Made by a program: the position numbers and the translations under genes. From the NCBI GenBank assembly GCA_022821145.1, contig JAJEEE010000047.1, positions 1 through 64,000 on the forward strand: a stretch of 64,000 nucleotides of DNA, read 5' to 3'. The stretch's first letter is position 1; every line of letters starts with the position of its first letter. This stretch comes from Acidobacteriota bacterium. Its GTDB lineage: Bacteria > Acidobacteriota > Terriglobia > 20CM-2-55-15. The notes beneath the pieces were generated by a model. That model was not told the origin of the DNA. It worked only from the letters and a program-made list of their open reading frames with translations, and ran no database searches. Positions 12,777-17,454 of the stretch are shown piece after piece.

Positions 12777-14777
12777 TCAATCGCGCCGGCGCCGGTCGCG
12801 ATCGATCGCCCGAAGGGTCTCCAGTTCGGACTCGGCCGCATCCAACGCCTGCCGCAGCGCGTCGAGCTCGGCGTCCCGTTCGGAGGCGACCCGGCCGATC
12901 TCGGCCCGCGCGGCATCCAGGCGCGACCGGAGATCCGCGGCCACGGCCTGAAGCTCCAGGAGCGGGCCGAGCCCCACCGCTCGAGAGGCGCCGGGAAACT
13001 CGGCGCGCATGTCTTCGAGGATGCGGCGCGCCGCGGCCGCGTCGTGCAGCGGACTGTCGGGCAGCGCGTGAATCAGCGCGAGCCGGTAGAACGCCTCCTC
13101 GCGATCGATCGCGATGCGCGGATCGGTCACCTCGAGCGCGCGCCGGTACGCGCGGGCGGCCGTCTCGTAATCGCCCTCGGCGAACGCGATGCCGGCCGGG
13201 ATCGACGGGTCCGGCTCGGGCGGGACCGGCGCCGGCGCACTGGGCCCGCAGGCGGCCAACGCCAGCCACGCGGCCACGGCTCCGGAGACGGCGGCCGCGC
13301 GCTGGATCTTCTTCGGCGGCGCCTTCCGGGCGCCAGGCAGCAAGAGCCGGAAGACGCTGCCGCCTCCCGGGTTGTCCTCTACCCAGACGCGGCCGCCGTG
13401 CGCGTCCACGATCCCGCGCGATATCGCCAGCCCCAGGCCCGCGCCCCCGCCGGCATGCCCGGAACCGCCGGGACGCACCTGCTGGAACCGCCCGAAGACA
13501 CGTTCCTTGTAGGCATCGGGAATGCCCGGGCCGGCGTCGGCGACGGAGACCTCGACGCCTCCCCGCGGCGCGATCCGCTCCGGAGGGGCCGGATCGACAC
13601 GGATCGCGATCGTGGAGCCGCGCGGCGCGAACTTCATGGCGTTGTCCACGACGTTGCCGATGACCTGCACGATGCGGTCCCGATCGCAGCGGACCGCCTT
13701 CACGCCATCGGCGACGTCGAGCGTGGTCGCGAGCCCGCGTTCCTCCAGAGCCGGCGCGAACTCCTCGAGCGTGGCGCGGATGAGCGCGGCGGCGTCCTCG
13801 TTCCGCATCTCGTAGGTGATGGTCCCGGCGTCCATCCGCGCCAGGTCCAGCAGACCGCCCACCATGGACGACAGGCGCCGCGAGCTGCGGATCGAGAGTT
13901 CCAGCAACCGCCGCTGCTCGGCGTTCAGCGGCCCGGGCACCTCGTCCAGGAGCAGCCGCACGATCTCCCGCGACGCGGCGATCGGCGACTTCAACTCGTG
14001 CGACACCGACGAGACGAAGTCCTTCTTCAACCGATCCAGCCCCTCCAACCGGTCCGCCATGCGGTTGAAGCTTCGGGCCAGCTCGCCGAACTCGTCGTTC
14101 CGGTCTTCCGGGATCCGGCGCCCGAGCCGGCCGGCGCCCAGCCAACGCGTGCCTTCCATGAGGCGGCCGAGCCCTCCCGAGATCGAACGCACGATGGGAA
14201 ACGCGACGGCGGCCGAGAGCAGCAGCGCCGTTCCCGCCAGGATCCACGAAACCCGCGTCGCCTGCCGGTCGATGCCGGCCGAAGCGGCGAGATGACGTTC
14301 CACCTCGGCGGCCGATGACGCGTGGAGCCCGTCCACCTGGCTGAACAGGCGGCGGAACCGGTCTTCGAGACGGGCCGGCAGCCACGTGTAGCCGGCCGGC
14401 GGCGGGGCGCCGCGGGCGGACTCGACGGCGTCGGCGAGCTCACGCCAACCCGCGCGCAGGCGCTCCAGCGCCGCGCGTTCCGCTTCGGACGGGTCGAGCG
14501 CCTCCAGGGCCGCGAGCGTGCGCTCGAACGCCGCGCGGCTCTCGGCCAGCTCCACGCCGTACCCGCCCACCATCAGGTCCTTGGAAACGAACTCCTCGGT
14601 GTCCAGGAGGGTCTCGTCGAGGCGAATGGCCAGCGACGCGGCCGGAAAGTAGGTGAGCGACAGGTCGTTGCTGATGGTCCGCATCCGGTGGACGAGCGTC
14701 CACTGGTACGCCAGCGCGCCCAGGGTCAGCGCCGCCAGGACCCCGTAGCCCGCGACGATGCGCGTCGATACCCTCAT
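12777..14777 (-). CDS. Sensor histidine kinase fused to QseG-like lipoprotein module
   Basis: 666 residues. Two membrane helices (~8-30 and ~177-196) flank a helical sensor domain. HAMP follows, then HisKA with SSVSHELKSP (phospho-acceptor His ~260), then HATPase with VVDNAMKFAP, DAGPGIP and GLGLAISRG. This resembles QseE/GlrK. The frame continues without a stop into RKAPPKKIQR, a hydrophobic stretch and LALAACGPS (Cys ~510), which looks like a complete lipoprotein signal peptide. A TPR-like and coiled-coil region (to 666) follows, like QseG. In Enterobacteria QseE, QseG and QseF are separate genes. Start ATG overlaps the regulator stop (ATGA). A lost stop codon by error is possible. Confidence 0.85.
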   Translation of the reverse strand: MRVSTRIVAGYGVLAALTLGALAYQWTLVHRMRTISNDLSLTYFPAASLAIRLDETLLDTEEFVSKDLMVGGYGVELAESRAAFERTLAALEALDPSEAERAALERLRAGWRELADAVESARGAPPPAGYTWLPARLEDRFRRLFSQVDGLHASSAAEVERHLAASAGIDRQATRVSWILAGTALLLSAAVAFPIVRSISGGLGRLMEGTRWLGAGRLGRRIPEDRNDEFGELARSFNRMADRLEGLDRLKKDFVSSVSHELKSPIAASREIVRLLLDEVPGPLNAEQRRLLELSIRSSRRLSSMVGGLLDLARMDAGTITYEMRNEDAAALIRATLEEFAPALEERGLATTLDVADGVKAVRCDRDRIVQVIGNVVDNAMKFAPRGSTIAIRVDPAPPERIAPRGGVEVSVADAGPGIPDAYKERVFGRFQQVRPGGSGHAGGGAGLGLAISRGIVDAHGGRVWVEDNPGGGSVFRLLLPGARKAPPKKIQRAAAVSGAVAAWLALAACGPSAPAPVPPEPDPSIPAGIAFAEGDYETAARAYRRALEVTDPRIAIDREEAFYRLALIHALPDSPLHDAAAARRILEDMRAEFPGASRAVGLGPLLELQAVAADLRSRLDAARAEIGRVASERDAELDALRQALDAAESELETLRAIDRDRRRRD

Positions 14778-16147
14778 CGTCCCGCCGCGGACACGCGCCT
14801 GTCCGCCTCGTAGCGGTGGAGCTTGTTGCGAATCGTCTTGACGTCCAGACCCAGCAGGCGCGCCGCTTCGGCCTTGTTGTCGCCCGCCATCTCCAGCGTC
14901 TTCAGGATCAGGGCCTTCTCGGCGTCCTCGAGCGTCGTGCCGCCGATCGGGAAGACCAGCTCGGTGGCGCCGGGCAGCCGCGACTCCCGGATGTAGGGCG
15001 GCCAGTGCCGGTCCTCGATCCACGGCCCGTCGGCCAGAACGACCGCGCGCTCGATGACGTTCCTCAACTCGCGGACATTGCCCGGCCAGGGGTGTTTCTT
15101 CAGCCGCTCGACGGACGATTCGCGCAGGCCCTCGGCCGGCGCGGCGTGCTTCGCGCGGAAGACGTCCAGAAAGTGTTGCGCCAGGAGCGGGATATCGCCC
15201 GGACGCTCCCGGAGCGCCGGCAGCTCGATCGTGAACACGGCGAGCCGGTAATAGAGGTCTTCGCGGAAACGCCCGTCGCGGACGGCCTGCGCGGGGTCGA
15301 CGTTGGTGGCCGCGATGACGCGCACGTCGAACTCGATCTCCCGGCGCCCGCCGATGCGCCGCACCCGCTGATCGTTCAGGACACGCAGCAGCTTGGGCTG
15401 GAGCGCCATCGGCATTTCGCCGATCTCGTCCAGGAACAGCGTCCCGCGGTGGGCCAATTCCAGGCAGCCCGGCCGCGTATCGAGCGCGCCTGTGAACGCG
15501 CCCTTTTCGTGTCCGAAGAACTCGCTCTCGGCCAGGCCTTCCGGAACGGCCGCGGCGTTGACGGCCACGAACGGCTGCGCCCGCCGCCGGCTGAGGTCAT
15601 GGATGCGCCGGGCCGCCAGCTCCTTCCCGGTCCCGCTCTCGCCGGTGACGATCACCGGCGTGTCGGCGCCGGCCACGCGCTCGATCAGGTCGAACACGGA
15701 GCGCATGGCCCGGCTCTCGCCGATGAAGCCGTCGCTGCCGGCGACCTTGCCGCTGAGCCGCCGCGACCGGAGCCGCGATTCGACGTCCCGCGCCGCTTCG
15801 TCGACGAGCGCCCTCAGCCGGCCGTAGTCCAGGGGCTTGGTCAGGAAGTCGCGCGCGCCGTGCTTCATGGCCTCGACCGCGTCGTCGATTCCGCCCTCGG
15901 CCGTCACGAGCAGGACGTGGCAGTGCGGGTCGTCCCGCTTGAGCGCACGGAGCAGGTCCAGGCCGGACAACTCCGGCATGACGAGGTCCGTGACCACTAT
16001 GTCGGGATCGAACTCCCGCGCCGCGCCGCGCCCCGCGGCGCCGTCCGGCGCGCTCCGGACCTCGAAGCCCCAGCTCTTCAGGCGCAACTCCAGCGCCGCG
16101 CGCATGGCCGCGTCATCCTCGACGACGAGCACTCTCGATGTTCTCAA
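14774..16147 (-). CDS. Sigma-54-dependent response regulator (QseF/GlrR-like)
   Basis: 457 residues. Receiver domain (~5-118) with acidic pocket VVEDD and phospho-acceptor Asp ~54 (VTDLVMPELSG). AAA+ domain with Walker A GESGTGKE (~166) and the sigma-54-contacting GAFTGA loop (~217). C-terminal Fis-type helix-turn-helix (NKAEAARLLGLDVKTIRNKL). Such regulators open RNA polymerase-sigma-54 complexes after phosphorylation. The partner kinase is encoded next, overlapping by 4 nt. The TTG start is preceded by GGGAGAGG. A textbook -24/-12 promoter lies about 150 bp away, upstream of the divergent gene. Confidence 0.93.
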   Translation of the reverse strand: MRTSRVLVVEDDAAMRAALELRLKSWGFEVRSAPDGAAGRGAAREFDPDIVVTDLVMPELSGLDLLRALKRDDPHCHVLLVTAEGGIDDAVEAMKHGARDFLTKPLDYGRLRALVDEAARDVESRLRSRRLSGKVAGSDGFIGESRAMRSVFDLIERVAGADTPVIVTGESGTGKELAARRIHDLSRRRAQPFVAVNAAAVPEGLAESEFFGHEKGAFTGALDTRPGCLELAHRGTLFLDEIGEMPMALQPKLLRVLNDQRVRRIGGRREIEFDVRVIAATNVDPAQAVRDGRFREDLYYRLAVFTIELPALRERPGDIPLLAQHFLDVFRAKHAAPAEGLRESSVERLKKHPWPGNVRELRNVIERAVVLADGPWIEDRHWPPYIRESRLPGATELVFPIGGTTLEDAEKALILKTLEMAGDNKAEAARLLGLDVKTIRNKLHRYEADRRVSAAGR

Positions 16148-16301
16148 CGCGCCTCTCCCTCAGGCCCGCGGCCCGAGCCTCACTCTATTGTGGTGCGAAC
16201 GCCGCCGAAGCGGGAATTATTTCCGGTTTCCCGGCCGGGACGCCTCGCGCGGGCGAACCGGAATCGGACGTAACTCGCTGAGAACACACGCCGGACGCGT
16301 T

Positions 16302-16318
16302 TGGCACGCCTCGTGCAA
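16302..16318 (+). promoter_or_regulatory. Sigma-54 (-24/-12) promoter
   Basis: TTGGCACGCCTCGTGCAA starts at 16301. The GG (16303-16304) and GC (16315-16316) elements are separated by exactly 10 bp and the flanks match consensus TGGCACG and TGCA. Transcription would start near 16328 and give a leader of about 100 nt before the gene at 16432. A GGAA-N4-TTCC inverted repeat near 16215-16226 upstream could be an activator site (speculative). Confidence 0.8.
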
Positions 16319-16431
16319 CGAAGCGGGGCGAGGCGGGAGCCGGCCGAAATCCACAATAAGCCGTTCACCGGCCCCCCGATACGGCGCGTCGGCCGGTTCC
16401 CGCCCGGAGAACGCGACATACGGAGGTCGAC

Positions 16432-17454
16432 ATGAGGTTCACAAGCCTGCTGGGTCCCGAGGACCCGAAACGGAAGCCCACGCGCAACGACATCGAGAAA
16501 GGCGCTCGCCCGGGAACGCCCAAAACGGCATCCGGTCTGGGCGTCTTCGCCCTCTGGGCCGCGGTCGGAATTCTGGCGGCCCTCTTCACATTCACCGCCC
16601 GTTCGGGCTTCGAGCGGCTGGAGGCCGGGGAGGCGCGGCTGGCCGAGACGGCGGACGCCGCCGCGGTCGAGGCGGTCGGAACGCGGCTGGATTCCCTGGA
16701 CCGGCGTCTTTCGACCGTGGCCGGCCGTGTACCGAACGCGGAGGTCATGGAACGGTTGAGCGCGCGCGTCTCGGCCGTCGAGTCGTCCCTCACGCGGGGG
16801 TTGGCCTCCGTACGCGGCGACATCGCCGAGATCCGGGAGGCCGACGACGACGTCGAATGGCGTATCCAGGCCGGGGTCGAGGACGCCGCGTCCCCGATTC
16901 GGGAACGGCTGGCGGCCCTGGAAGCGGCCGAGCAGTCCCGGATGGCGGAGCTGGCGGTCCTGGAAGACAAGCTCGTGGACGAGATCGAGTCCGTCGGTTT
17001 CGACCTGGCGTTCGAGATGGACCTCGAGCGCCGGCGTGACGACGCCCGCACCGCGGGTCTGGCGAACCGCCTGGCGGGCGCCGAGCGCCGTCTCGACGTC
17101 GTCGCGTACGCCGTCGACAAGGATCGCGTCGATTTCGAAACGTACACGGACTTCAACGAGGAGATCGCGCCCGGCATCGTCCTGCGCCTCACGCGCGTGG
17201 ACCGCCGCCTTCAACGCATCGGCGGCTGGATCTGGCTCGTGCCCGAGGCGCGCTTCCTGCGGATCGACGATCACCCGATCCAGCGTTCCCTGGTGTTCTA
17301 CACCCACCAGGACGACCGGCCCCACGAGTTGGTCTTCACGCGCGTGACCGAGACGGCCGCCGTCGGATTCGTGCGGCTGCCGTCGGAATCGGTCGTGGAG
17401 TCGGCGGACGCGTCCTGGGATGCGCCGCCGGTCGCCACCGTCCTGAACGACTGA
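16432..17454 (+). CDS. Unknown membrane-anchored coiled-coil protein
   Basis: 340 residues; I do not recognise the family. A short polar N-terminus with GPEDPKRKPTRNDIEKG is followed by one hydrophobic helix (~residues 35-55). A long heptad-rich segment follows (~58-240, with LDSLDRRLSTVAGRV, RLSARVSAVESSL). The C-terminal ~100 residues look globular (IGGWIWLVPEARFLRIDDHP, VFYTHQDDRPHELVFTRV). A ribosome site ACGGAGG precedes the ATG. It lies downstream of a sigma-54 promoter and divergent from the sigma-54-dependent regulator gene, so it is probably a target of that system. Confidence 0.8.
   Translation: MRFTSLLGPEDPKRKPTRNDIEKGARPGTPKTASGLGVFALWAAVGILAALFTFTARSGFERLEAGEARLAETADAAAVEAVGTRLDSLDRRLSTVAGRVPNAEVMERLSARVSAVESSLTRGLASVRGDIAEIREADDDVEWRIQAGVEDAASPIRERLAALEAAEQSRMAELAVLEDKLVDEIESVGFDLAFEMDLERRRDDARTAGLANRLAGAERRLDVVAYAVDKDRVDFETYTDFNEEIAPGIVLRLTRVDRRLQRIGGWIWLVPEARFLRIDDHPIQRSLVFYTHQDDRPHELVFTRVTETAAVGFVRLPSESVVESADASWDAPPVATVLND

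Follow-up and report, generated by a model that had tools for sequence, protein, structure and literature searches.

A sigma-54 promoter and a constrained leader upstream of an unnamed coiled-coil protein, and a proposed three-component envelope regulatory unit in an acidobacterial class

It is proposed that the gene for a coiled-coil membrane protein (CC) and its structured 5' leader are driven from a sigma-54 promoter by a divergently encoded response regulator belonging to a sigma-54-dependent three-component envelope regulatory unit; as a whole explanation we consider this probable. The unit lies in the window, a stretch of 64,000 nucleotides of Acidobacteriota DNA, and its features are collected in Table 1. 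It is best read as an envelope sensor of the QseE/QseG/QseF kind with envelope proteins as its sigma-54 output. The comparisons confirm and strengthen the original prediction that the -24/-12 motif is, on sequence evidence, a real sigma-54 promoter, and the original interpretation, which is partly supported, now extends beyond the single gene to a family found across the class.

Table 1. Positions of the proposed regulatory unit in the window
Feature	Position	Strand	Description	Basis
Lipoprotein-like segment	12777..13307	-	Lipobox LALAAC, TPR-like, coiled coil; fused in frame to kinase	
Histidine kinase part	13308..14777	-	Two TM helices, helical periplasmic part of about 140 aa, HAMP, HisKA, HATPase	
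Response regulator	14774..16147	-	Receiver, sigma-54 AAA+ (GAFTGA), HTH_8; divergent from CC	
IHF-like site (candidate)	16271..16283	-	TCTCAGCGAGTTA on the minus strand	Two mismatches to WATCAANNNNTTR
-24/-12 sigma-54 promoter	16302..16317	+	TGGCACGCCTCGTGCA, preceded by T	Motif match, congener identity, family-wide spacing peak
5' leader	16328..16431	+		Two-species alignment
Leader hairpin	16332..16404	+	Arms 16332-16347 and 16389-16404, 16 nt, 94% complementary; smaller hairpin in loop	
CC gene	16432..17454	+	340 aa; N-terminal tail, TM helix (aa ~37-57), coiled coil to aa 228, beta domain	
CC C-terminal beta domain part	17116..17385	+	aa 229-318, most conserved part of the family	Family alignment, structure model

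The promoter reads TGGCACG-N5-TGCA, combining the TGG-N9-TGC core and the GG-N10-GC spacing of sigma-54 promoters with near-consensus TGGCACG and TGCA elements. Its sequence, its strand and the gap of exactly 10 nt between GG and GC are as originally described, but TGGCACG and TGCA are separated by 5 nt rather than 4. It is located on the strand of the CC gene, 130 nt ahead of an ATG that has a GGAGG ribosome site, and by the rule that transcription begins about 12 nt past the GC, the predicted start is near 16328. The pattern TGGCACGN5TGCW, with no mismatch allowed, occurs only here in the window, and the 4.18-Mb genome has two exact matches vs 18 for the control pattern read backwards. The element is identical in G001, the only congener, in a comparison in which the stretch just upstream aligns poorly and the flanks have diverged. 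The genome encodes a full-length RpoN of 505 aa, as the original prediction demanded; none of the three sigma-54 domains of Pfam (AID, core-binding and DNA-binding) is missing from it. Upstream of the promoter, the IHF-like site has a counterpart at the same place in G001 with one mismatch; weak when taken alone, it is supported as a candidate by its position and by the family enrichment described below. An inverted repeat (16221-16235/16249-16263), considered as a possible activator site, is also present upstream, with arms that are poorly kept in the congener, and a QseF-type site (TGTN12ACA) is absent within 150 nt upstream of the promoter in either species.

The predicted coiled-coil membrane protein was recovered as a protein with one TM helix and a long coiled coil, to which the beta domain is an addition. 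Searches of CC against Pfam and NCBIfam gave sub-threshold matches only, none above a curated cut-off. In the AlphaFold2 model, residues 37-97 and 103-228 are helical and residues 231-316 form an eight-strand beta domain of high confidence (mean pLDDT 87 when the domain is modelled alone). Foldseek returned no match at E <= 0.001 for the whole model or for the beta domain alone, and the best VIA-align row for the domain is the periplasmic beta region of CcsBA (ResB-type; 7s9y), which superposes with Z 10.0 and 2.2 A over 81 residues, the next unrelated rows (Z 8.2 and 7.5) being modestly below it. Sequence similarity to CcsBA/ResB was not found and a ResC-like part is absent, and the modelled likeness may reflect no more than an arrangement that is common among folds. 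The TM helix is preceded by basic residues that suggest an N-in topology, which would place the coiled coil and the beta domain in the periplasm, and CC probably serves the envelope as a structural component or scaffold. A search with the single CC sequence found relatives in 22 of 101 related genomes, and a profile search built from 25 relatives found the family in 297 of the 299 genomes of the class, mostly in 1 to 7 copies each. Common to its members are a short N-terminus, a single TM helix and a coiled coil, and F, G and P are invariant in their C-terminal domain. The class is called acidobacterial here because the only named locus, that of G001, comes from a MAG labelled Acidobacteria bacterium p16x33bins.48, the sole match in a single-protein scan of the named genomes.

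Two independent marks of activator-dependent sigma-54 promoters, spacing and IHF sites, agree in the CC family. For 131 members picked by protein similarity alone, the 350 nt upstream of the TM helix were surveyed for TGG-Nk-TGC; the motif occurs 51 times at k = 9 vs 4 to 21 times (mean about 10) at 19 other spacings and 11 times on the reverse strand. A promoter score of at least 13.5 is reached by 21 regions on the forward strand, none on the reverse strand and about 2 in shuffles. Related genomes are not independent, so that the promoter and IHF ratios serve as guides rather than exact probabilities. When the 30 members with the clearest sites were compared with the 62 lacking a site, the IHF consensus with at most one mismatch was found within 100 nt upstream in 12 of the former (1.6 expected) and the perfect consensus in five (0.03 expected), its centre often 19 to 37 nt before the TGG; the 62 members without the promoter have it in three (1.9 expected), which is no excess. 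The promoter is absent in some members. A strong sigma-54 site in G015, TGGCACACTGGTTGCT, stands 106 nt before an operon of an OmpA-type coiled-coil lipoprotein gene and two CC-family genes (L032:6456-9842, plus strand). In the f6 genomes CC itself has no promoter and follows the OmpA-lipoprotein gene, before which the other candidate promoters have middling scores (12.2 to 13.3) and are only suggestive.

The divergent gene encodes the sigma-54-dependent regulator that had been predicted (receiver, Sigma54_activat at 229 bits and HTH_8), and the GAFTGA motif intact in its translation makes an enhancer-binding activator available to the promoter. Its stop codon is overlapped by the start codon of the kinase. 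The kinase and the lipoprotein-like segment form a single fused chain (12777-14777, minus strand) that keeps a signal-peptide-like stretch and the lipobox, with no ATG between the parts. Occurrence of the fusion in both species of the genus (the lipobox of G001 is LALAGC) supports a kinase-lipoprotein partnership like that shown for QseE and QseG (PMC6075780). In f1 (g3 and g4), f6 and f7, regulator, kinase and TPR/coiled-coil lipoprotein form an operon in which the lipoprotein is a separate gene. This set adjoins an OmpA-family coiled-coil lipoprotein gene and then CC in the f6 genomes G015, G023 and G030; a related regulator gene lies upstream of the OmpA-lipoprotein and CC pair in G037, an OmpA-lipoprotein gene is near the set in G049 and G055, and one comes after the lipoprotein gene of the set in g3 and g4 of f1. 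The adjacency of the regulator set to CC and/or OmpA-lipoprotein genes recurs in several genera in differing orientations, and in the genus of the window CC is divergent from the regulator and has its own promoter. These OmpA-type neighbours of the family and of the set point to the envelope, the likely theme in the original prediction. The regulator gene and the promoter of G001 are separated by genes for a HicA_toxin protein and for a DUF1902 protein, the latter a probable HicB-type antitoxin (L029:2706-3200, minus strand), an arrangement not seen in the window; the promoter and leader of G001 are intact despite this insertion.

The plan of the unit resembles that of QseE/QseG/QseF (GlrK/YfhG/GlrR) with glmY and rpoE in Enterobacteriaceae (PMC6075780). 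In both, a single operon encodes a sigma-54 response regulator, an envelope lipoprotein and a kinase whose periplasmic part is helical and about 140 aa long; a sigma-54 target gene adjoining the operon, a probable IHF involvement and an envelope theme are further shared features. However, the regulator scores 340.6 bits against a cut-off of 763 for the curated GlrR model, the TGTN12ACA sites of QseF targets are absent upstream of the CC promoter, the lipoprotein is of the TPR/coiled-coil type and fused to the kinase, unlike QseG, and in place of GlmY the output is a gene for an envelope protein, preceded by a structured leader, no Rfam family reaching its gathering score in the window. Orthology to QseEGF was considered and rejected because the regulator falls short of the curated cut-off and QseF sites are absent, so that the "homologous" of the original prediction becomes "analogous", with the same regulator-kinase-lipoprotein plan; by analogy, the best-supported view is that the unit works like QseE/G/F yet is, by the tests made, not its ortholog. 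The OmpA-family peptidoglycan-binding lipoproteins are, like CC, coiled-coil envelope proteins encoded beside the regulator set, often in one operon with CC, but CC has a TM anchor instead of a lipid and ends in an unnamed beta domain in place of the OmpA domain. Control of the cell exterior through sigma-54 is already well established (PMC3162934), and a literature search on sigma-54 promoters in Acidobacteria returned nothing on the subject.

We propose that the kinase and its lipoprotein partner, here in one chain, would read an envelope cue, possibly envelope stress, and that the kinase would phosphorylate the response regulator. The latter would bind on the upstream side of the divergent promoter and, probably helped by a bend in the DNA at the IHF-like site, open the RpoN polymerase at 16302-16317. 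The resulting transcript would start near 16328 with a hairpin leader, probably stabilising the mRNA or tuning its translation, and its product would be a coiled-coil protein that is anchored in the inner membrane, carries its beta domain in the periplasm and probably has a structural or scaffolding role in the envelope. In this scheme we infer the acting regulator, the signal, the role of the leader, the topology and the structural role of CC.

Promoter and leader (16300-16405) are 97% identical between the two species, whereas the CC gene reaches 84% and the kinase and regulator genes 88%; this stretch of 105 nt opens with the -24 element, stops about 25 nt short of the ATG and is at the 96th percentile among 105-nt windows of an 11-kb, mostly coding, two-species alignment. 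The predicted 5' end precedes its hairpin (MFE -53.2 kcal/mol, z -2.8) by 4 to 5 nt. The long-hairpin fold and the 97% identity beside a gene at 84% argue that the leader RNA itself is constrained. Across the family, the sigma-54 leaders of 34 members have a mean z of -1.09 vs -0.20 for 131 control leaders, a contrast owed largely to the genus of the window and to g31 (three genomes). The promoter-leader DNA, sought in 151 genomes, was fully matched only in the congener. In Rfam searches, no family reached the gathering score in the window, and selected loci examined at E up to 0.5 had no relevant match. In E. coli ompA, a hairpin at the 5' terminus is known to protect the mRNA, and by analogy such protection would be the simplest role for this leader. 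The original contrast of a small RNA in enterobacteria with a protein here is too simple for a leader that is more conserved than the gene and strongly structured.

These properties of the leader also bear on what the promoter mainly makes. If the leader RNA were the main product, either as a small RNA like GlmY or as a 5' switch, and the protein arose by read-through, the greater conservation of the leader, its strong hairpin and the more structured leaders of the family would be accounted for; we nevertheless judge this quite unlikely, as the hairpin is followed by no terminator-like U run, a good ribosome site and a conserved ORF lie downstream, Rfam gives no match and, among the 151 genomes searched, the leader is not found outside the genus. 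A somewhat less doubtful, still speculative variant is that one transcript of a class-wide unit has two outputs, the envelope protein and a constrained hairpin leader RNA, the RNA being either a trans-acting one or a regulated 5' switch; if true, an acidobacterial three-component envelope sensor would join an RNA arm and a protein arm in one unit.

A more serious competitor of the proposed unit, although we would give it only a minor chance, accepts the promoter and puts it under another sigma-54 activator of the cell, the divergent regulator being adjacent incidentally. The genome encodes at least eight related sigma-54 activators, the congener has its insertion between regulator and promoter, and in many genomes, including those of other families, the promoter-bearing CC gene is away from a regulator of the divergent type, which means that other activators may serve CC. 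Against an incidental adjacency stands the recurrence of the regulator set beside CC and/or OmpA-lipoprotein genes in several genera and in differing orientations. As to the promoter itself, a chance match with CC transcribed from another promoter was weighed as well; one match to a motif can never be proof, and the IHF-like site of the window has two mismatches. This reading was rejected on conservation and spacing statistics and appears very improbable: the genome has just one further exact match, the congener keeps the element unchanged between flanks that have diverged, and the fixed-spacing and IHF statistics stand against it. Enrichment of GG-N10-GC upstream of the CC family across the class makes the promoter more than chance. 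The proposed unit, with the divergent regulator acting on CC, is the reading we retain.

The CC family occurs in nearly every sampled genome of the class without a Pfam or NCBIfam name or a known function, and the recurrent sigma-54 and IHF signals are a first handle on it, with many members under activator-dependent control and neighbours that point to the envelope. A nearly universal family with recurring sigma-54 promoters points to an overlooked envelope-control system in the acidobacterial class, and both the RpoN targets of the class and the function of CC become directly testable in its culturable members.

The genome search for further promoters of this kind, suggested with the original prediction, gave one other exact match to TGGCACGN5TGCW, an intergenic site on contig C34 (L242:1501-1516, plus strand) 226 nt ahead of the gene for a small secreted helix-hairpin-helix protein, with its own long GC-rich leader and another sigma-54 activator gene close by. 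In the region L055:7300-11731 (minus strand), the rpoN gene is located between an LptB-like ABC ATPase gene and HPF-like and RapZ-like genes (named from sequence); RapZ is the partner of GlmY/GlmZ in E. coli.
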